NCBI GenBank assembly: GCA_937873225.1
Contig: CALMVN010000183.1
Location: 1 to 40,615 of the forward strand
Length of the DNA stretch: 40,615 bases
Direction: 5' to 3'
Source of the DNA: an uncultured Acetobacteraceae bacterium
Lineage (GTDB): Bacteria; Pseudomonadota; Alphaproteobacteria; Acetobacterales; Acetobacteraceae
Positions 1,254 to 13,990 of the stretch are shown one piece after another (position 1 is the first letter of the stretch; every line of letters begins with the position of its first letter). The notes under the pieces were generated by a model. That model was not told the origin of the DNA. It did not search any database and worked only from the letters and a program-made list of their open reading frames with translations. The position numbers and the translations under genes were made by a program.

Positions 1254-4150
<2,897 letters not shown>

Positions 4151-4154
<4 letters not shown>

Positions 4155-4858
4155 GGGAGGCTCTCGATCCGGGCCGCCAGCGCCGCCCCCAGGAAGGCGA
4201 GCGCCGCGGCGCCGCCGCTGCCGGCGGTGCCCCCGGTCATGCTGGCCGGCAGCCCGTCCTGCAGCACCTGCGCATCCCGGCTCGCCAGCGCCAGAAGCAT
4301 CGGCGGCTGGTTCCGCACCGTCACCCGGAGCAGCGCGTCGTGCGCGGCAAGCGGCGCCGCCTCGCCGTGCAGCACGCCGGCGTCGAGCGGCGCGATCCTG
4401 ACCCGGACGTCCCGCCGACCGAGCAGGCGCACCACCGTGCCGGGGGGGAGGCTGCGCGCCAGCAGCCGCTCCGACAGGCCCTGCGACGGTTCCTCGACCC
4501 AGAGCAGCGCGGAATCGATGCCGAGCAGGCGCGGCAGGTCGCAGGCGACGCATTCGCCCAGGTCGGTCGCCCGGATCAGCGCCAGCACCGCCTCGCGCAC
4601 CCGGTCCGACAGGCCCAGCGCCGCGCGTCCGGCCTGAAGCACGGTCTCGGCCCGGGCGCTCATGCTGGCCGCCTGCTGCCGTGCCGCGTCGATCATCGCC
4701 GCCATGTGGTCGGCCAGGGTATCGCCGTGCACGCGGCGCGGCGGCGACAGCACCTCGTACAGGTCGGTCTGCGTCGCCAGCCAGTCCGGGTTCTCGGCGA
4801 GGAAGCGCGCCACCCGGTCTTCCTCGCTGTCCCGCCCCGGCGCGTTCTCATTGTCCAT
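4151..4858 (-). CDS. DUF484 family protein
   Basis: The protein is about 235 residues, starting [16 protein letters not shown]. The N-terminus carries [19 protein letters not shown], the characteristic opening of the DUF484 family, followed by a helical linker and a GAF-like C-terminal half. Its biochemical role is not established. The family is often found next to xerC, as here, where the stop overlaps the xerC start. I prefer the ATG at 4858 to the ORF-track start at 4906 because conservation begins near there and a GGGAG lies 13 bases upstream, but this start is not certain. priA is divergent, with about 146 bp between the two starts. Confidence 0.85.
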
Positions 4859-5004
4859 CGGGCGGATCGCTCCCATTCTGGAGAACACCGCCCGCACTGG
4901 ATGCAACCCTGTCCGTCACGCGTATCACGCCGCAGAGATTAGACCTCCCCGCCGCATCGGCAAGCCGCCCCGACGCGTCCCGTGCCGCCGCCAGGCGGGT
5001 TCCG

Positions 5005-7200
5005 GTGCTGCTGCCCTACCCGTTCGCCGGCGCGTTCGACTACGCGTGTCCCGCATCGCCCGCGCTGGAGCCGGGCGACGTGGTGCTGGTGCCGCTCAAC
5101 CGGCGCGCCGAGGTGGGGGTGGTGTGGGACGCGCCGGACGGGCTGCCGGCCGACCTCCTTCCTCCAGGCGCAGCCCCGGTGCCCGATGGCAAGCTGAAGC
5201 CGGTGTCCGCCCTGCTCGACGTGCCGCGCATGCCGGCCAGCCTGCGACGCTTCGTCGACTGGGTCGCCGGCTACACCCTGACCCCGCCCGGGCTGGTGCT
5301 GGCGATGGCGCTGCGGATCAACGCGGCGCAGCCCCTGCCCGTCACCACCGGCTGGGTCCGCTCCGGCAGCAACTCGGTGTCGGTCCGGTCCACCCCGGCG
5401 CGCAACCGGGTGCTGCAGGCGCTGGCCGACGGGATGCCGCGCGGCACCGCGGAGCTCGCGCGCCTGGCCGGGGTCGGGAGCGGGGTGGTGCGCGGCATGG
5501 CGGAAGCCGGGCTGCTTCGCGAACAGGAGGTCGCCGCCGCGCCGTCGTTCGGCCGGCCGGATCCGGACCATGTCGGGCCGGGCCTGTCCGCCGACCAGGA
5601 GCGCGTGGCGGCGGCCTTGCGCGGGCTGGTGCAGGCGCGCCGGTTCCAGGCCGCCCTGCTCGACGGCGTCACCGGCTCGGGCAAGACCGAGACCTACCTG
5701 GAGGCGGTGGCGGCGTGCCTGGCGGAAGGCCGCCAGGCGCTGGTGCTGCTGCCGGAGATCGCGCTGTCCTCGCAATGGCTGCAGCGTTTCCAACGCCGGT
5801 TCGGGGTGGAGCCGGCGGTGTGGCATTCCGACCTCGGCTCCAAGCGCCGCCGGATCACCTGGCGCGCGGTCGCCGGGGGCGAGGCGCCGGTGGTGGTGGG
5901 CGCGCGCTCGGCCCTGTTCCTGCCGTTCCCCGACCTCGGCCTGGTGGTGGTCGACGAGGAGCACGAGACCGCGTTCAAGCAGGAGGACGGGGTGTCCTAC
6001 CACGCCCGCGACATGGCGGTGGTGCGGGCGCGCCTGGCGGAGGCGCCGGTGCTGCTGGTGTCCGCGACCCCCAGCCTGGAAACCCTGACCAACGTCGAGA
6101 CCGGCCGCTACCGGCACCTGTCCCTGTCGGTCCGGCACGGCGGCGCGCGCCTGCCTGAGGTGGCGGCGGTGGACCTGCGCGACCACCCGCCCGAGCGCGG
6201 CCGCTTCCTGTCGCCGCCGCTGATCGAGGCGGTGGCGGGAACCCTGCACCGGGCCGAGCAGGCGATGCTGTTCCTCAACCGCCGCGGCTACGCCCCCCTG
6301 ACCCTGTGCCGCGCCTGCGGCCACCGCATCCAGTGCCCGAACTGCACCGCCTGGCTGGTCGAGCACCGCGCCCGGCGCCAGCTCGCCTGCCACCATTGCG
6401 GCCACACCGAGGCGGTGCCGGTGCACTGCCCGTCCTGCCGCGCCGAGAACAGCCTGACCCCGATCGGTCCCGGCGTGGAGCGCATCACCGAGGAGGCGCG
6501 CACCACCTTCCCCGACGCCCGCATCCTGGTGATGGCCAGCGACACCCTGCCGGGCCCGACCGCCGCCGCCGAGGCGGTGCGTCGCATCGCCGAGCGCGAG
6601 GTCGACCTGGTGATCGGCACCCAGATCGTCGCCAAGGGCTGGCACTTCCCCGGGCTGACCCTGGTCGGCGTGGTCGATGCCGATCTCGGCCTCGCCGGCG
6701 GCGACCTGCGCGCGGCCGAGCGCACCGTGCAGCTGCTGCACCAGGTCGCCGGCCGCGCCGGACGCGCCGAGCAGCCGGGCCGCGTGCTGCTGCAGACCTA
6801 CAGCCCGGAGCACCCGGTGATGCAGGCCCTGGTCGCCGGCGACTTCGCCCGCTTCATGGAGCGCGAGGCCGAGCAGCGCCGTCCCGGCCATTGGCCGCCG
6901 TTCGGCCGGCTGGCGGCGCTGATCGTCAGCGCCGACACCGCCGAGGCGGCAGACCAGGCGGCGGCGGCGCTCGGACGCAGCGCGCCGACGGGGGAGGGGT
7001 TGCAGGTGCTGGGCCCGGCGCCGGCGCCGCTGGCGATCCTGCGCGGCCGGCACCGCCGCCGCCTGCTGCTGCGCACCCGACGCGAGGTGGCGGTGCAGCC
7101 GATCCTGCGCCACTGGATGACCGCCTGGCGCGCCCTGGCCCCCACCGTGCCGCGCTCGGTTCAGGTCGACGTCGACGTCGACCCGGTGTCGTTCCTGTGA
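5005..7200 (+). CDS. priA: Primosomal protein N' (replication restart helicase PriA)
   Basis: PriA is an SF2 3'-5' helicase that reloads the replisome at stalled forks. The chain has the N-terminal 3'-end-binding region ([12 protein letters not shown]), Walker [12 protein letters not shown] near residue 220, the DEEH box ([12 protein letters not shown]) near 317, and eight zinc-ligand cysteines in four pairs (CRAC, CPNC, CHHC, CPSC) around 435-490. The C-terminal helicase motif is [12 protein letters not shown]. The start is difficult: in this frame the only ATG/GTG/TTG codons upstream of the body are at 4681, deep inside DUF484, and at 5005. The GTG at 5005 gives 731 residues, the usual PriA length, but begins a few residues inside the first conserved strand, so a CTG start slightly upstream is possible. 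Confidence 0.93.
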
Positions 7201-7224
7201 ACGTCGTTCATATAAACGACGTTC
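7199..7224. repeat. Perfect 10-bp inverted repeat at the priA stop
   Basis: GAACGTCGTT and AACGACGTTC are exact reverse complements separated by CATATA, and the left arm overlaps the priA stop codon. The element lies between two convergent genes, so a two-way terminator hairpin is the simplest reading. However, no T-run follows on either strand. A protein-binding operator-like site is the alternative. The AT-rich centre is unusual for this region. Confidence 0.75.
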
Positions 7225-7237
7225 AAGCGGAAACCGC

Positions 7238-7516
7238 CTAGTCCTCGTGCTTGCGGTGGCCGCGGCCGCTCTGCGTCTTTTCCGCGGCGACTCCCGCGGC
7301 GTGCTGCTTTTCCAGCTTGCCGGCGGTGGCGGTGCTGGTGTTGTCGCCGGCGACCGCGCCTTCGACCGCCTTGGAGGCAGCGCCCTTGGCCGCACCCTGG
7401 CCCTCGGTCGGCGACGGCGCCGGGCCGCCCTCCGGAACGTTGTCCTCCGGCCTGGGGTGATGCCCCTTCACCGTGCCGTGGCTGGTGATCTCGTCACTGC
7501 GTTCATGCTTGCTCAT
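7238..7516 (-). CDS. Small hydrophilic protein of unknown function
   Basis: This 92-residue, highly charged protein is rich in Gly, Ala, Lys, Glu and His. It begins MSKHERSDEITSHGTVKGHH and has no hydrophobic segment and no recognisable domain. It looks intrinsically disordered, like many small stress-associated proteins, but that is only compositional resemblance. A good ribosome site (AAGGA) precedes the ATG at 7516. Upstream, on the same strand, is an imperfect match to an EcfG-type stress promoter (see 7546-7570). It is convergent with priA and divergent from the epoxide hydrolase. Confidence 0.7.
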   Translation of the reverse strand: MSKHERSDEITSHGTVKGHHPRPEDNVPEGGPAPSPTEGQGAAKGAASKAVEGAVAGDNTSTATAGKLEKQHAAGVAAEKTQSGRGHRKHED

Positions 7517-7545
7517 CGCTGATCCTTCCGAAGCGTCCGCCGTTC

Positions 7546-7570
7546 AACCCGTCGCGGTTTGGGGAGTTGC
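7546..7570 (-). promoter_or_regulatory. Possible EcfG-like promoter for the 92-aa protein
   Basis: On the minus strand GCAAC, 16 bases, then GGTT are present. The alphaproteobacterial general stress consensus is GGAAC-N16/17-CGTT, so each element has one mismatch while the spacing is right. The site ends about 30 bases before the start codon. This is weaker evidence than the match at 35636-35660. Confidence 0.3.
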
Positions 7571-7595
7571 CCCCACCGACCGGAGGAGGATCGGC

Positions 7596-8738
7596 ATGCA
7601 ACCGTTCACCGTGGCGTGGGACGAGGCGACGCTGGACCGCATACGCGGGCGGCTGCGCGACCAACGCATCCCGCCGACGCCCGAGCACGCCGGATGGCGC
7701 TACGGCTGCGATCCCGGGTTCCTGCGCGACCTGTGCGCCTACTGGGCGGACGGCTTCGACGTCCGTGCCGCCGCCGCCGAGCTGAACCGGTTCCCGCAGG
7801 TGCTGCACCGGGTGGAGGACATCGACCTTCACGCCATCCACCTCGTCGGCGAGGCGCAGGGGCGCCGGCCGCTTCTCCTCACCCATGGCTGGCCGGGCTC
7901 GGTCTACGAGTTCTGGCAGGTGGCGGAGCCGCTGGCGTTCCCGTCCCGCCACGGCGGGAACGCCGCGGACGCGTTCGACCTCGTGATCCCCTCGCTGCCC
8001 GGCTTCGGCTTTTCCGGCAAGCCCGCCTCGCCGGTCGGCGCGCGCACCACCGCGCGGCTGTTCGACCGCCTGATGCGCGACGGCTTCGGCTACGGCCGCT
8101 ACCTGGCCCAGGGCGGCGACTGGGGCGCCGGCGTCAGCGCCTGGCTGGCGCTGGAGCACACCGCCTCCATCCGCGCCATCCACCTCAACTACCTGCTGGT
8201 GCAGCCGGACGCGCAGCCGGACACCGACGAGGAGACGGCATGGAAGGCGGCGTTCGACGCGTCGGAACAGGCGCTCGGCGCCTATGCCCACCTGCAGCGG
8301 ACCAGGCCGTCATCGCTGAACTACGCCATGGCGGACAACCCTGTCGCCCTGGCCGCCTGGATCGTGGAACGGTTCCACGACTGGGCTGACCTGCGCGAGC
8401 AACCGTTCGAGGCGGTGTTCTCCCGCGACCGGCTGCTGACCAACCTCATGATCTACGTGGCCAACGACGCCTTCCCGACCTCGACCTGGTACTACGCGGC
8501 TGCCGAGGCGGAGGGCGTGCGCCGGATGCCGCCAGGCCGGCGCGTGACCGTCCCCACCGCGTTCGCGGCTTATCCCGATCCGCGCTCGCCGACGCCGCCA
8601 CGCTCCTGGGTCGAGCGCGGCTACGACGTCACGCGCTGGACCGAGCAGCCGCGCGGCGGGCACTTCGCCGCCATGGAGGCGCCGGACCTGTTCGTCGAGG
8701 ATCTGCGCGCCTGGGCGCGGGCATTGCCGCCGGATTGA
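7596..8738 (+). CDS. Epoxide hydrolase (EHN-type alpha/beta hydrolase)
   Basis: The 380-residue protein opens with the epoxide hydrolase N-terminal segment (PFTVAWDEATLDRIRGRL) and continues as an alpha/beta hydrolase. The HGWPGS oxyanion motif is at about 97 and the nucleophile is Asp175 in GGDWGAG. An aspartate rather than serine at this site marks epoxide or haloalkane chemistry. The catalytic histidine is His356 in GGHFAAME. It would open epoxides to diols in the cytoplasm. I took the ATG at 7596, which has a strong GGAGGAGG site, rather than the earlier ORF-track start. A short hairpin follows the stop. The natural substrate is unknown. It lies directly upstream of the broken alcohol dehydrogenase, so the two may once have worked on related compounds. 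Confidence 0.9.
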   Translation: MQPFTVAWDEATLDRIRGRLRDQRIPPTPEHAGWRYGCDPGFLRDLCAYWADGFDVRAAAAELNRFPQVLHRVEDIDLHAIHLVGEAQGRRPLLLTHGWPGSVYEFWQVAEPLAFPSRHGGNAADAFDLVIPSLPGFGFSGKPASPVGARTTARLFDRLMRDGFGYGRYLAQGGDWGAGVSAWLALEHTASIRAIHLNYLLVQPDAQPDTDEETAWKAAFDASEQALGAYAHLQRTRPSSLNYAMADNPVALAAWIVERFHDWADLREQPFEAVFSRDRLLTNLMIYVANDAFPTSTWYYAAAEAEGVRRMPPGRRVTVPTAFAAYPDPRSPTPPRSWVERGYDVTRWTEQPRGGHFAAMEAPDLFVEDLRAWARALPPD

Positions 8739-8753
8739 GGCGTCCCGGACGCC
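8739..8753 (+). terminator. Short hairpin directly after the epoxide hydrolase stop
   Basis: GGCGTC-CCG-GACGCC forms a perfect 6-bp stem with a 3-base loop starting at the base after the stop codon. There is no following T-run, so intrinsic termination would be weak. It could be an mRNA 3' end protector. Confidence 0.35.
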
Positions 8754-8801
8754 GATCGCGTCGTTGCAGCCGTGTTCCTTCCGGGTACCAGGAGCGTTTC
8801 C

Positions 8802-9290
8802 ATGAAGGCAGTCGTCTGGCACGGCATCGGCGACATCCGCCTCGACGAGGTGCCCGATCCGAGGATCGAGGCGCCGACCGATGCGGTGATTCGCCTGACC
8901 GCGTCCGCATCTGCGGCACCGTCAGTGGCATGAAGCCCGGCACCCTCCTCGGCCACGAGGGCATCGGTGTGGTCGAGGCGCCAGGCGGGCAGGTGCGCAA
9001 CTTCGACATCGGCGGCCGGGTGATGGTGTGCTCCACCGTGTCCTGCGGCGTGTGCTCGTGCTGCCGCGCCGGCGACACCGCGCAGTGCGACAGCGCCAAC
9101 CCCAACGGCCCGTCTGCCGGCACCAGCTTCTTCGGCGGACCGGAAACCACCGAGCCGATGAACGGGCCGCAGGCGCAGCGGGCGGGCATCCCGTTCGCGT
9201 CCAACACGCTGGTCAGGCTGCCGGAGCAGTCAGCGACGACCAGGCGATCCTGCTCAGCGACACCGTGACGGTATACGGCTGCGGCTGCGT
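8802..9290 (+). pseudogene. Zinc-dependent alcohol dehydrogenase, N-terminal remnant (frameshifted)
   Basis: An AGGAG site and ATG at 8802 start MKAVVWHGIGDIRLDEVPDP, the typical opening of a medium-chain zinc alcohol dehydrogenase. The frame ends early at 8934. Homology then continues in a second frame (AICGT, missing about ten codons before GMKPGTLLGHEG) through the structural-zinc cysteines (CGVCSCCRAGDTAQC) and GTSFFGGPE. It jumps to a third frame at VSDDQAILLSD, where a further short deletion joins it to TVTVYGCG. Homology stops near 9290, about half way through the protein. Two frameshifts plus deletions make it non-functional. The C-terminal part of the same family lies at 13593-13941, across a 4.3 kb block. 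Confidence 0.85.
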
Positions 9291-9313
9291 TCCGGCTTCC
9301 GTACTGTGTTCAG

Positions 9314-9510
9314 CTAGATGTTTTCCGGATCCCGGTCGTCGGCGTTCCCCTGGCCCTCGAACACCCTGATCCCATCCCGCTCGACCACCTCCGCCCGCAG
9401 CGCGATGGTTTGACCCTGATCGTTCGCCAGTACGCCCACATAGGCGCCACTGGCGTCGCGACCGAGCCGAAAGCGGTAGATGCAGCCGCGGCAGACGGAG
9501 CGGCAGGTGC
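9314..9510 (-). pseudogene. Unassigned open-frame fragment without a start
   Basis: On the minus strand a frame runs from just after the SDR stop to a TAG at 9314-9316, reading IYRFRLGRDASGAYVGVLA and ending NADDRDPENI. Its balanced composition looks protein-like, but there is no ATG start and I do not recognise a family. It may be the tail of a gene truncated when the block at 9.3-13.6 kb was assembled, or chance. Otherwise I see nothing in 9291-9511. Confidence 0.25.
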
Positions 9511-9511
9511 T

Positions 9512-10261
9512 TCAGACCTGCGCCCAGCCACCGTCCACCGACAGCTCGATGCCGGTCACATAGGATGCGTCGTCGGAGGCGAGGAACAGGGCAGGCCTGG
9601 CAACCTCCTCGGCCGAACCGATACGAGCCATGGGAATTTGGCCCGCCGCTTGCGCCTTCACCTGCTCGATCATCCCGTCCGGCATGCCGACCTTCCGCAT
9701 GAGGTCGGTGTCGATCTGTCCTGGCGCCAGCGCATTCACCCGGATGCCCTTGGCCGAAAGCTCCGCCGTAAGTGACCGTGCCAGCGACCGGATCGCTGCC
9801 TTGGTCGCCGAGTACACGCTGAAGCCCTGGCGTCCCTGCGCGCCCAGGATCGAGGTATTGAGGATGATTGAGCCGCCGGCTGTCATCAGCGGCACGAGCT
9901 TCTGCACGGTGAAATAGGTGCCTTTCAGGTTGGTATCGACCGTGAAATCGAAATCATCCTCCGACACCTGCTCGAGCGGCCCGGGCCTGCCGCCGCCCGC
10001 GTTGGCGAACAGCACATCGACACGGCCATGGTTCTGCCCGACATGGCTGGCCAGAGCATCAAGGTCCGCCAAGCTGGCGATGTCGCTGCGGAACGGCTCC
10101 ACCCGATCACCGATCTCCCGCGCCGCGGCGTCAAGTGCGGCCTGGTTGCGACCGGTGATGACGACCGTCGCACCCTCCTCGACGAACAGTCTGGCCGTGG
10201 CCAGTCCCATGCCCGCGCTGCCACCGGTAACGACTGCGATCTTCCCGTCCAACTTGCCCAT
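9512..10261 (-). CDS. SDR-family NAD(P)-dependent oxidoreductase
   Basis: This 249-residue classical short-chain dehydrogenase carries the cofactor motif GGSAGMG at 13-19, NAG in LFANAGG near 88, and the catalytic Ser137, Tyr150 and Lys154 (YSATK). The C-terminal ASYVTGIELSVDGGWAQV is the usual SDR end. The ATG at 10261 has an AGGAG site; the ORF-track extension upstream is not coding. It is divergent from a TetR regulator with about 100 bp between starts, and a perfect palindrome lies in that gap. TetR control of a neighbouring SDR is a common arrangement, so induction by a small molecule is likely. The substrate is unknown. Local GC is lower than in flanking genes. Confidence 0.9.
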   Translation of the reverse strand: MGKLDGKIAVVTGGSAGMGLATARLFVEEGATVVITGRNQAALDAAAREIGDRVEPFRSDIASLADLDALASHVGQNHGRVDVLFANAGGGRPGPLEQVSEDDFDFTVDTNLKGTYFTVQKLVPLMTAGGSIILNTSILGAQGRQGFSVYSATKAAIRSLARSLTAELSAKGIRVNALAPGQIDTDLMRKVGMPDGMIEQVKAQAAGQIPMARIGSAEEVARPALFLASDDASYVTGIELSVDGGWAQV

Positions 10262-10330
10262 GTCCAACTCCTGACGCGCTCTTCGCCGGCGGCACCCACG
10301 GAGTGGCGCAACGACAGCGGGACAAATATA

Positions 10331-10344
10331 TGAAGCATGCTTCA
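10331..10344. promoter_or_regulatory. Perfect 14-bp palindrome, candidate TetR operator
   Basis: TGAAGCATGCTTCA reads identically on both strands and lies in the gap between the divergent SDR and TetR genes, beside an AT-rich stretch (AAATATATGAAG) suitable for a promoter. Size and position fit an operator for the adjacent TetR repressor, controlling both genes. The ATG inside the palindrome is the ORF-track start of tetR; I therefore prefer the next ATG at 10361. Confidence 0.6.
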
Positions 10345-10360
10345 GTTCTGGGATTCGCAT

Positions 10361-11005
10361 ATGGCAACCAGCCTTCCCGCAGACCTCAACCGGCGGAAAA
10401 CACCGCGTCAGGCCCGATCCACTGTCACTGTGGAGACGATCTTCGACGCGACCATTCAGGTTTTGCTGGCGACGGGATCCACCAGGCTGAACACTACGCG
10501 GGTGTCGCACCGCGCCGGCGTCTCGGTGGGCACCCTCTACCAGTATTTCCCCAACAAGCAGGCCTTGCTTCTGGCCGTTCTGGAGCGTCACCTCGCGATG
10601 CTCGCGAGCGTCGTCGAGGACGCCTGCCTGACTCATCGGGACCAGAAGGTGCAGGTGATGGCCGAGGCCGTTGCAACGGCCTACCTGCACGCGAAGGCGC
10701 AGCAGCACGAGGTTTCCCGCGCCCTGTATCTGATCGCGACCGAACTGGATGCGAGGGGTTCAGTCGAGGCCGCCACGCGCCGTGCCGAACAGGCAGTCGC
10801 GGAAATGTTGATGACTGCCAGCGACGGTTGTTTCGCCGATGCGCCGCTGGTTGCCCGGGTTCTTCTGGCCGCGATCTTCGGGGCGGTGCGGGCGCTCCAT
10901 GAACAGGGTGCGCCGCCCAGGATCGGCGGCGATGTCGAGCAGGAGCTTGTCAGCATGTGCCGCGCCTACCTTGCGGCGGCAGGACGAACAGGCTGGACAG
11001 CTTAG
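10361..11005 (+). CDS. TetR/AcrR-family transcriptional regulator
   Basis: The 214-residue protein has an N-terminal TetR helix-turn-helix: TVETIFDATIQVLL then TRVSHRAGVSVGTLYQYFPN, the family signature ending in YxYFxNK. A mostly helical ligand-binding and dimerisation domain follows. I use the ATG at 10361 (MATSLP) because the upstream ATG at 10337 sits in the centre of a palindrome that looks like an operator. It is divergent from the SDR gene, which it probably represses together with itself. The ligand is unknown. Confidence 0.88.
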   Translation: MATSLPADLNRRKTPRQARSTVTVETIFDATIQVLLATGSTRLNTTRVSHRAGVSVGTLYQYFPNKQALLLAVLERHLAMLASVVEDACLTHRDQKVQVMAEAVATAYLHAKAQQHEVSRALYLIATELDARGSVEAATRRAEQAVAEMLMTASDGCFADAPLVARVLLAAIFGAVRALHEQGAPPRIGGDVEQELVSMCRAYLAAAGRTGWTA

Positions 11006-11068
11006 CGCCTCGGCCGGTCGTCTCGGACGATGCGGTCGATCTGCGCTGCCTGACGGGTTCTGGCGGGA

Positions 11069-11953
11069 TCACAGCCACTCCTGTGGAAACGCGGTGTCGA
11101 GGAACCGCATGAAGGCCTTGACCTTCGCACTCGCCAATCGGCCCGAGGCATGGAGCGCCCACAACTCGGCCGGGCGGCTTGAGGCCGGTCCCCAGCTGAC
11201 CAGCCGGCCCGACGCCAGATCCTCGGCAACAAGTACCCTGGGCAGCTTGGCCGCGCCGATGCCAGTCAGCACCGCATCCCGGATCATCGGCAAAGCCGGC
11301 AGCTGCAGGACCTGCCGCGTGCGGATCTCGGGCTCGTCCAAGCTTGCGATCCGCCACATCTCGGGGTTCGGCAACCCGCTCCTGACCACCACGGGCACCG
11401 GCTGCACGTTAAACGGATCGGGCGTGACCGGAGGTCGGGCCAGAGTGGGCACCGCAACGACCAGGACCTGGTCGCGCACGAAGCACCGCCCGACGAGACC
11501 AACCTCCGGCTTGGGATTGAGACGAATGACGACGTCACAACCCTCCGCGATCAGGTTGATGGCGCGGTCCTCCATCGTCACGTCGAGGATCACGTCGGGG
11601 TAAGTCTTGGTGAACTCCGCCGCGACCCGGCCCATCAGCAGCTGGCCGAAAACCTGGGGCACGTTGATGCGCAGCCGGCCCCGCGGCTTCGCGCGGCTGT
11701 TGCGCAGCATCTCGGCCGCTTCCTCGATCTCGCCGAGCGGGCCGGCCGTTCTGGCATAGAGCAGCTCTCCTTCCTCGGTCAGGTGGACCGAGCGTGAGCC
11801 GCGCTCGAACAGACGCACACCCAGGCTTGCCTCCAACTCCATCACCTTGCGCGACAAGCTCGCCTTGGGCCGTCCGCTCACGCGGCTGGCTTGGGTGATG
11901 CCGCCGTTCGCGGCGACCAAGACGAAGTCGGTCAGCGCCTCGAGGTCCAGCAT
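11069..11953 (-). CDS. LysR-family transcriptional regulator
   Basis: The 294-residue protein starts MLDLEALTDFVLVAANGGIT, with the winged helix-turn-helix in the first 60 residues (ASRVSGRPKASLSRKVMELE and LGVRLFERGSRSVHLTEEG). A periplasmic-binding-like effector domain follows (RLRINVPQVFGQLLMGRV, DVVIRLNP). This matches the subgroup with short C-terminal ends that often controls neighbouring oxidoreductases. I place the start at 11953 because the family begins there; the ORF-track start at 12031 adds 26 residues without similarity. It is divergent from the NmrA-like gene and probably regulates it. The 115 bp between the starts showed no convincing LysR box on reading. Confidence 0.88.
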   Translation of the reverse strand: MLDLEALTDFVLVAANGGITQASRVSGRPKASLSRKVMELEASLGVRLFERGSRSVHLTEEGELLYARTAGPLGEIEEAAEMLRNSRAKPRGRLRINVPQVFGQLLMGRVAAEFTKTYPDVILDVTMEDRAINLIAEGCDVVIRLNPKPEVGLVGRCFVRDQVLVVAVPTLARPPVTPDPFNVQPVPVVVRSGLPNPEMWRIASLDEPEIRTRQVLQLPALPMIRDAVLTGIGAAKLPRVLVAEDLASGRLVSWGPASSRPAELWALHASGRLASAKVKAFMRFLDTAFPQEWL

Positions 11954-12068
11954 CGTTCCAGCCGTGGGACGTGAGGTCTTAAATGACCGGCTCAAGTTGT
12001 CCGTAGCAAGGGCCATTCTAGTCGTGGGCACTCATCGGGTCGCTATCCAGCTGATCCCTACCAGGACC

Positions 12069-12950
12069 ATGACAATGACCATTCTCGTCACCGGCGGAAC
12101 CGGGACCGTCGGTTCCCACGTCCTTGAACACCTGTCCGGCCAGGGCGCCGACGTGCGGGCCCTGACCCGCGATCCGGCGAAGGCCAGGTTTCCGAACGGC
12201 ATCGTGCCGGTCCGCGGCGACATGCTCGACATCGAGTCCATGCGCAGCGCGCTGACAGGGGCGAGCACGCTGTTTCTCCTCAACGCCGTCACGCCCGAGG
12301 AGCTGTCACAAGCCCTGCTGACGCTCAACCTCGCCCGGGAGGCCGGTCTCGAGCGGGTCGTCTACTTCTCCGTCTACAAGGGCCAGGACTTCACCAACGT
12401 CCCGCATTTCACGGCAAAGCACACCGTCGAGCAGATGATCGAGCAGTACGACATCCCGGCGACGATCCTGCGGCCGAACTGCTTCATGCAGAACGACGCC
12501 ATGTTCAAGGACGCCGTCCTCGGACCTGCCGTTTACCCTTTCCCCATCGGCGCCAAGGGCGTGTCCATGGTGGATGCGCGCGACGTCGCCGAGGTTGCGG
12601 CCAAGGCTCTGCTCGAGCGTGAGCGCGCGAGCGAGCCGCTGCCACACCAGATCATCAACGCCGTTGGTCCGGAACCGCTCACCGGCACCGGCATCGCGGC
12701 GATCTGGTCCGACCTGCTGGGCGAGCCGGTCCGATATGCTGGCGACGACACCGCACCGTTCGAGAAGCTGCTCGGGCAGCACGCGCCGAGCTGGATGGCA
12801 ATGGACCTTCGACTGATGCTCGACCGGTTCGTGCAGGACGGGATGCACGCGGCACCGGCCGACGTCGAGGAGATGAGGCGCCTGCTCGGCCGGCCACCCC
12901 GCTCGTATGCGGCCTTCGCGACAGAAACCCTGGCGCATTGGCGCCACTAA
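12069..12950 (+). CDS. NmrA/SDRa-family NAD(P)H-binding protein
   Basis: The 293-residue atypical SDR begins MTMTILVTGGTGTVGSHVLE with the GxxGxxG dinucleotide site. NGIVPVRGDMLD, ASTLFLLNAVTPEE and FTAKHTVEQMIEQYDIPATI follow, as in NmrA-like NAD(P)H sensors and quinone-reductase-like proteins. These lack the classical YxxxK site in its usual place, so it may be a reductase or a redox sensor. An AGGA site precedes the ATG at 12069. Divergent pairing with the LysR gene suggests regulation by it, and the membrane protein 77 bp downstream is likely co-transcribed. Confidence 0.87.
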   Translation: MTMTILVTGGTGTVGSHVLEHLSGQGADVRALTRDPAKARFPNGIVPVRGDMLDIESMRSALTGASTLFLLNAVTPEELSQALLTLNLAREAGLERVVYFSVYKGQDFTNVPHFTAKHTVEQMIEQYDIPATILRPNCFMQNDAMFKDAVLGPAVYPFPIGAKGVSMVDARDVAEVAAKALLERERASEPLPHQIINAVGPEPLTGTGIAAIWSDLLGEPVRYAGDDTAPFEKLLGQHAPSWMAMDLRLMLDRFVQDGMHAAPADVEEMRRLLGRPPRSYAAFATETLAHWRH

Positions 12951-13027
12951 TCCTTCAAGGCGTCCACGGGCCTCGTTCGAAGCGGTGACACGAACGAGCA
13001 GGGCCGGGCAGGAAAGGAACACACGTC

Positions 13028-13555
13028 ATGACTACTGCCATGTCCGGCACGGGCGCTGCCGGCGAGAAGACCGGAACACGATTGGCTGCCAAGGTGGGTG
13101 CCAGCCTCTTCGGGCTATGGGGCATCCTGCACCTCTGGGTCGGCTACGAGGGGCTGCGCCAGTACATCGCCAGCCCGGCGAAGGGGCAGTGGAAGATGTT
13201 CATTGGCGGCAGCAAGGCACCGGTCGACGCCTTCACCTTCCCCAATGATCCGGTCACGGCGCACGTTCATGCCAACCTGATCCTGAACTTCTGCATCGAC
13301 GTGTCCGGCTACGGCGCTCTCGGAATCATCGTCTCCTGGCTACTGTTCAAGCGCGGGTCTTGGCTGGCCTACTTCCTGGGCGTGTTCCTGATCGGCATCT
13401 GCGACGGCAGCTTCACCATCCTGCAGCTCACGTCCGGGATCATCGCGGTGAGCATCCCGTCGGTCAGCGGGCCGATCATCTGGCTGCTCGCCGCGCTCGT
13501 CACCCCTTTCGGGTTGCCGGTCCCGAGGATGGGCGCCGCTTCGCAGGCGCTGTGA
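13028..13555 (+). CDS. Integral membrane protein of unknown function
   Basis: The 175-residue protein has about four hydrophobic helices: near 22-40 (VGASLFGLWGILHLWVGYEG), 86-108, 112-137 and 140-162. A conserved-looking loop contains HVHANLILNFCIDVSGYG. I do not recognise a named family. A strong GGAAAGGAA site lies before the ATG at 13028. It follows the NmrA-like gene on the same strand and may be part of its operon. The remains of the alcohol dehydrogenase begin about 40 bp after its stop. Confidence 0.75.
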   Translation: MTTAMSGTGAAGEKTGTRLAAKVGASLFGLWGILHLWVGYEGLRQYIASPAKGQWKMFIGGSKAPVDAFTFPNDPVTAHVHANLILNFCIDVSGYGALGIIVSWLLFKRGSWLAYFLGVFLIGICDGSFTILQLTSGIIAVSIPSVSGPIIWLLAALVTPFGLPVPRMGAASQAL

Positions 13556-13592
13556 ATCCTTTCAAGACTCACCACGACAACCAGAAGGTGAC

Positions 13593-13941
13593 GATGGCCG
13601 CGATGCAGATGGCGGAGCGGGCGGCGCGCCGACGCGGGCGCTGGAACGGGCGATCGTTGCTGGCCGAAGCCGGCACGCTCGGGATCATCGGCGTGCATCC
13701 GCCTTCGGCCGGGACCCTGCCGGTCGGCATCGCCATGAACAAGAACCTGACGATCCGGACGGGCAACTGCAACCACCACGCATACATCCCGAAACGGGTC
13801 GAGATGCTGCGGGTGGGACTGGTCGACCCGGTCACCGTCCTGACCAAGGTCGAGCCGATGCTGGACGTGATCTCGGCCTACGAGGCGTTCGACACCCGGC
13901 AGCCGGGCTGGATCAAGACCGAGCTCGGGCCCGCGGCCTGA
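13593..13941 (+). pseudogene. Zinc-dependent alcohol dehydrogenase, C-terminal remnant (frameshifted)
   Basis: In one frame the sequence reads GGAPTRALERAIVA; after a frameshift near 13661 it continues AEAGTLGIIGVHPPSAGTLP, AMNKNLTIRTGNCNHHAYIP and EAFDTRQPGWIKTELGPAA to a TGA at 13941. This is the C-terminal third of the same zinc alcohol dehydrogenase family whose N-terminal half lies at 8802-9290. The two pieces do not overlap in protein coordinates and the middle part (most of the nucleotide-binding domain) is missing. The fragment has no ribosome site of its own that I trust, so it is most likely dead sequence. Confidence 0.82.
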
Positions 13942-13949
13942 TCCGCCTG

Positions 13950-13980
13950 GTCCGGGACGGGAAACTCCTCGTTCCCGGAC
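13950..13980. terminator. Hairpin between the convergent dehydrogenase remnant and xylA
   Basis: GTCCGGGA and TCCCGGAC form an 8-bp stem around a 15-base loop. It lies ten bases beyond the xylA stop on the minus strand. There is no T-run, so this would be a weak or factor-assisted terminator. Confidence 0.4.
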
Positions 13981-13990
13981 GCCTGCGGCT

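Follow-up and report, generated by a model that had tools for sequence, protein, structure and literature searches.

A zinc alcohol dehydrogenase (ADH) gene in the priA–xylA slot of a Lichenicola-like member of the Acetobacteraceae has probably been disrupted by imported DNA, likely plasmid-derived and with involvement of IS5/IS427-type elements, and decayed afterwards. The gene lies in a window of 40,615 nucleotides, i.e. the whole stretch of DNA that was analysed. Judged from alignments, positions 8802–~9287 and ~13618–13941 represent the front and the back of this one gene, and the DNA between them is a block of foreign composition made up of two separate gene modules. At the right seam, positions 13559–13617 are a fragment of an insertion sequence (IS). 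A sequence-only reading had already proposed a single dehydrogenase gene that received a foreign block and decayed, which is supported here by the shared parentage of the two halves and by the composition and relatives of the block.

Two halves of one dehydrogenase gene

The N-terminal part of the ADH pseudogene (8802–9287, plus strand) comprises a GroES-like domain (PF08240, 43.6 bits) and the start of the Rossmann motif. It begins with an ATG at 8802 and retains the structural-zinc cysteines (CGVCSCCRAGDTAQC); homology with intact ADHs ends at ~9287, at ..YGCG. Amino acid identity to nine ADHs of the family amounts to 55–70% (tblastn). Reading of 8802–9316 in three frames revealed two 1-nt frameshifts, attributable to single-base losses at ~8912 and ~9229. 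The start codon, the cysteines and both frameshifts had been claimed previously, and all of them are present in the three-frame reading and in the codon alignment. The latter, made with relatives, disclosed two additional lesions: a 24-nt in-frame deletion, corresponding to the eight codons DLHFVRGT and flanked by CGGCACC repeats, and a further deletion of 51 nt, flanked by GCGACA-type repeats.

The C-terminal part (13618–13941, plus strand) shows homology from ~13618 (GGAPTRALE, compared to GDAPSQALE) to the natural stop at 13941, with 52–65% amino acid identity to the same nine family genes (tblastn). It carries one frameshift, a 2-nt loss at ~13654. A frameshift of its own had been proposed for this piece and is borne out; the start of homology, previously placed at 13593, had to be moved to ~13618. 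Thus, all three frameshifts of the earlier list of lesions are real, although the list had overlooked the two deletions in the N-terminal part as well as a gap of ~109 codons between the pieces (~0.33 kb; residues ~189–297 of the homologue L031). This missing middle accounts for most of the NAD-binding region. Aligned to L031, the halves map to residues ~1–188 and ~298 to the end, confirming that they lie in the same orientation, in order and without overlap; intact homologues in related genera measure 392–407 aa. The best NCBIfam match of the N-terminal half points to the zinc ADH family near glutathione-independent formaldehyde dehydrogenase (TIGR02819), albeit with 42.5 bits, far under the model cut-off of 637, and the ADH in the window differs from that family in being fragmented, frameshifted and devoid of most of the NAD-binding region. 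A chimeric open frame of ~115 aa (13594–13941) begins inside the IS fragment and continues through the ADH tail; it may be called a gene by automatic annotation.

The flanking pieces could also be remnants of two unrelated dehydrogenases that happen to enclose the gene block, and the ~109 codons absent between them, due to which the halves do not abut, would agree with such a coincidence. This is highly improbable given the relatives of the two pieces. Searched against 300 genomes of the family, the C-terminal part retrieved nine genes at 56–64% amino acid identity, followed by matches of at most ~35%, except for a paralogue in its own genome at 51%; the same nine genes ranked first for the N-terminal part. 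In separate trees, both halves are nearest to the same two homologues (L030 and L031, from genomes G063 and G073), with moderate support for the N-terminal and weak support for the C-terminal tree. Thus, a test for two different parents did not refute the single-gene reading, which is further favoured by the shared strand, the preserved order and the lack of overlap. Moreover, the only close paralogue in the genome, on contig C204, is intact (402 aa) and more distant, being ~51–53% identical. The end branches of the two halves are long (0.32 and 0.50, against medians of ~0.09 and ~0.07), in line with what a gene in decay should show.

The presence of the intact C204 paralogue implies that the loss of the split ADH may have been tolerated. 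For the same reason, it is conceivable that the ADH decayed first, through missing selection, and that the block entered an already dead gene. The lesions are compatible with either order, and no direct evidence speaks against decay before insertion, which we consider possible, if somewhat unlikely. The preferred reading is insertion before decay.

The intervening block and its seams

Five open reading frames without internal stops occupy most of the space between the halves, arranged as the sequence-only reading had described. The first module is a divergent pair consisting of an SDR oxidoreductase (9512–10264, minus strand, 250 aa; PF13561/PF00106) and a TetR regulator (10337–11005, plus strand, 222 aa; PF00440). 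Both are intact, and the same divergent pair is found on a Rhizobium gallicum plasmid, with amino acid identities of 70% and 56%, respectively. The second module comprises an intact LysR regulator (11069–12031, minus strand, 320 aa; PF03466/PF00126), an intact NmrA-family NAD(P)-binding protein (12069–12950, plus strand, 293 aa; PF05368) and, 3′ of the latter, a probable membrane protein (13028–13555, plus strand, 175 aa) without any Pfam or NCBIfam match. This trio recurs on a plasmid of Paraburkholderia PREW-6R (67%, 76% and 71% amino acid identity), with the membrane protein in the same position. The Paraburkholderia NmrA protein is closer than any from the host's own family (at most ~60%), and a scan of genome contigs with NmrA returned distant, unrelated loci only. 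The membrane protein is rare elsewhere: 399 genomes of the phylum yielded one further match, a weak one (29%). In base composition, the block (64–67% GC) lies below the ADH pieces (69–70%) and the core flanks (69–76%).

The notion of the block as one travelling unit was rejected, as both modules occur together in no plasmid record. Divergent LysR/NmrA (HSCARG) pairs of Alphaproteobacteria show the same arrangement in Acetobacteraceae and Rhizobiales; the copy in the window, however, is nearest to the Paraburkholderia plasmid trio with its extra membrane protein. A speculative and rather doubtful extension would regard the trio as an uncharacterised redox-sensing cassette that plasmids and IS-bearing DNA have carried between Burkholderiales and Acetobacteraceae. 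If true, the locus in the window would be one landing site of the trio.

To the left, the block is preceded by the remnant of a small plasmid-type gene (9317–9511, minus strand) that lacks a start codon. Plasmid NZ_CP053709.1 of Lichenicola cladoniae encodes a protein with 67% amino acid identity to it, and four more homologues were found in the same genome (contigs C214, C215, C163 and C65), two of them on contigs that also bear ParA-like and integrase-like open reading frames (C214 and C163). Members of this gene family measure ~65–100 aa, share the core YRFRLGRDASGAYVGEL and are repeated in the genus, partly at least on plasmids or plasmid-like contigs. The left seam itself (9288–9316) has no assigned feature. 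Comparison of 9255–9360 with plasmids gave no significant match, and the best local score for an IS tip at this seam was 7, which was equalled in half of the shuffles. When the two seams were searched for short direct repeats, as had been suggested, the longest word in common was 5 nt, as in shuffled sequence, and no target duplication is detectable around the block. A CTAG near 9313–9316 resembles an IS427-type target but overlaps with the stop codon of the remnant gene and was not used as evidence.

At the right seam, the minus strand of 13559–13617 represents a terminal fragment of an IS5-family (IS427-type) element, encoding the transposase C-terminus SAICIAAIVTFWLSW-stop. In a search of the host genome with the locus, positions 13562–13617 matched an IS on contig C170 with 82% identity over 56 bp, a comparison that involves a diverged fragment of only 59 bp. 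Its alignment to the end of the C170 element nevertheless scored 36, compared to at most 16 in 2000 shuffles. The C170 element has a length of 843 bp, belongs to the IS5 family and contains DUF4096 and DDE_Tnp_1 domains in two frames. Set against SAICIAATVIFWLP-stop, the transposase C-terminus SAICIAAIVTFWLSW-stop of the window is in accordance with IS5-family homology. Likewise, the fragment aligns with IS ends on plasmids of Paracoccus, Novacetimonas, Komagataeibacter and L. cladoniae, several of which are annotated as IS5 transposase. Each of the five genomes of the genus contains this IS family (5/5), in many cases as short stretches located at the ends of contigs.

The IS427 group of the IS5 family, which includes elements of Paracoccus, is characterised by a transposase split over two frames (PMC3281130). 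The relatives in the genus (~0.83–0.84 kb) resemble this group in having the transposase distributed over two frames and in their DDE_Tnp_1 and DUF4096 domains; the tips read GGCTCAGGAC, with an adjoining CTAG in the copy of genome G004. In contrast to these elements, the window keeps only the last ~59 bp. One end remains (13559–13617), and neither a second terminal inverted repeat nor a target duplication was found. The element itself is dead, and what is left is a fragment rather than an element. Still, an IS5-family terminus with the last transposase codons shows that the earlier statement, according to which no transposase or integrase is visible, is incorrect. The tip of the IS, at ~13559, is located a few bases 3′ of the stop of the membrane protein gene and points toward the block, with the interior facing the ADH tail; the interior is severed at position 59, where ADH sequence adjoins directly.

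IS-like sequence at one seam, in a draft assembly of 348 contigs, raises the question of whether the split is a misjoin. Against this stand the decay lesions in both halves. In addition, no further copies of the halves or the long seam sequences were found in the genome, if the C204 paralogue and the C170 IS, both diverged, are set aside. Hence, a repeat that could have prompted a misjoin is not apparent, and an assembly artefact is very hard to credit.

The priA–xylA slot in sibling genomes

The epoxide hydrolase gene, the split ADH and the block together form a variable interval between priA and xylA (7199–13984). In the sibling genome G002 this interval is absent, and positions 7198 and 13985 of the window align 12 bp apart (L117, 17949/17962). 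The sibling genome G003 carries other genes in the same slot, including a formamidopyrimidine-DNA glycosylase-like gene (L115, 16772–17629). With the whole interval replaced by 12 bp in G002, the priA–xylA site is a variable chromosomal slot. The ADH starts 63 bp downstream of the epoxide hydrolase gene; a conserved pair of the two was dismissed, since neither gene was beside the other in the loci compared.

Comparison of the syntenic locus, proposed as a way to find an uninterrupted gene, did not provide one: the siblings with the locus have no ADH at all, no relative carrying an intact ADH at this site was found, and this ADH occurs in no other member of the genus. The outcome has no bearing on what the two halves are. 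Since an intact ADH was found at this locus in no relative, however, the interval could have arrived already split. The complete 6.8 kb would then have been acquired in a single transfer, with the disruption having taken place in another bacterium. Such a history agrees with the patchy distribution of ADH and epoxide hydrolase orthologues in the family, with the confinement of this ADH to one member of the genus, and with the other members of the genus in which the xylA locus is present; these show either no interval or other genes in the slot. Conversely, both the IS family and the remnant of the plasmid-type gene are characteristic of the genus itself, favouring assembly within the genus, and a donor was not found; we regard a single transfer as unlikely.

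A tyrosine recombinase gene at 3156–4553 was examined as a possible agent of insertion. It is kept beside priA in both siblings (G002 and G003) and is therefore read as XerC, a housekeeping gene, rather than as a mobile-element integrase; its role as insertion agent was rejected. An island of the phage or integrase type is not indicated either, given that no mobile integrase is adjacent and that the longest repeat between the outer borders is 6 nt. Together, xerC and priA make up a conserved core neighbourhood (3156–7200). In G003, a DNA methyltransferase island adjoins xerC (L115, ~8030–11575). Right after priA, a small low-complexity protein may be encoded on the minus strand (7199–7473), beside a near-perfect inverted repeat (GAACGTCGTTCATATAAACGACGTTC).

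A possible route of disruption and its meaning

The sequence-only reading had left the route of insertion unexplained; the two seams now hint at one, with an IS5/IS427-type terminus at the right seam and, close to the left one, a truncated gene of plasmid type. IS elements cause deletions from their ends as well as replicon fusions (PMC9330008, PMC3281130), and we infer that the route was either integration of a plasmid or recombination linked to IS elements. The DNA that arrived or was rearranged would have comprised the small plasmid-type gene, the SDR/TetR pair, the LysR/NmrA–membrane protein trio and IS sequence. One way would be integration via IS copies, giving the order ADH-N, IS, plasmid DNA, IS, ADH-C; in this arrangement, the right-hand IS would have plasmid genes next to its outer tip, which matches the observation. 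The left IS may then have been eliminated by deletions, and a later deletion may have joined the IS interior (position ~59) to the ADH tail, taking with it the remainder of the IS and possibly some of the ADH middle. Free of selection, the ADH halves would have shed individual bases and, between small direct repeats, short segments as well.

The orientation of the fragment, with its tip toward the block and not toward ADH sequence, makes a simple jump of an IS into the ADH at the present seam impossible. Moreover, with neither an IS tip nor a target duplication found at the left seam, the data fall short of demonstrating simple transposition or a composite transposon; the latter was discarded after own-genome searches and seam comparison failed to locate IS copies on both sides. 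The insertion was not clean: ~0.33 kb of the ADH are gone and a target duplication is not detectable. The locus resembles a textbook IS-adjacent deletion with respect to the disrupted gene, the imported DNA, the IS terminus at the seam and the missing target sequence. It differs in that the seam lies inside the IS instead of at its exact end, and in that neither a further IS copy nor a target duplication has survived.

In summary, the disruption of genes by mobile DNA is a familiar type of event, of which the split ADH is an ordinary instance, and no new mechanism is indicated. It provides a worked example of a chromosomal slot, between priA and xylA, that gathers foreign modules, and illustrates that IS and plasmid scraps below the size of routine annotation can still account for the disruption of a gene.
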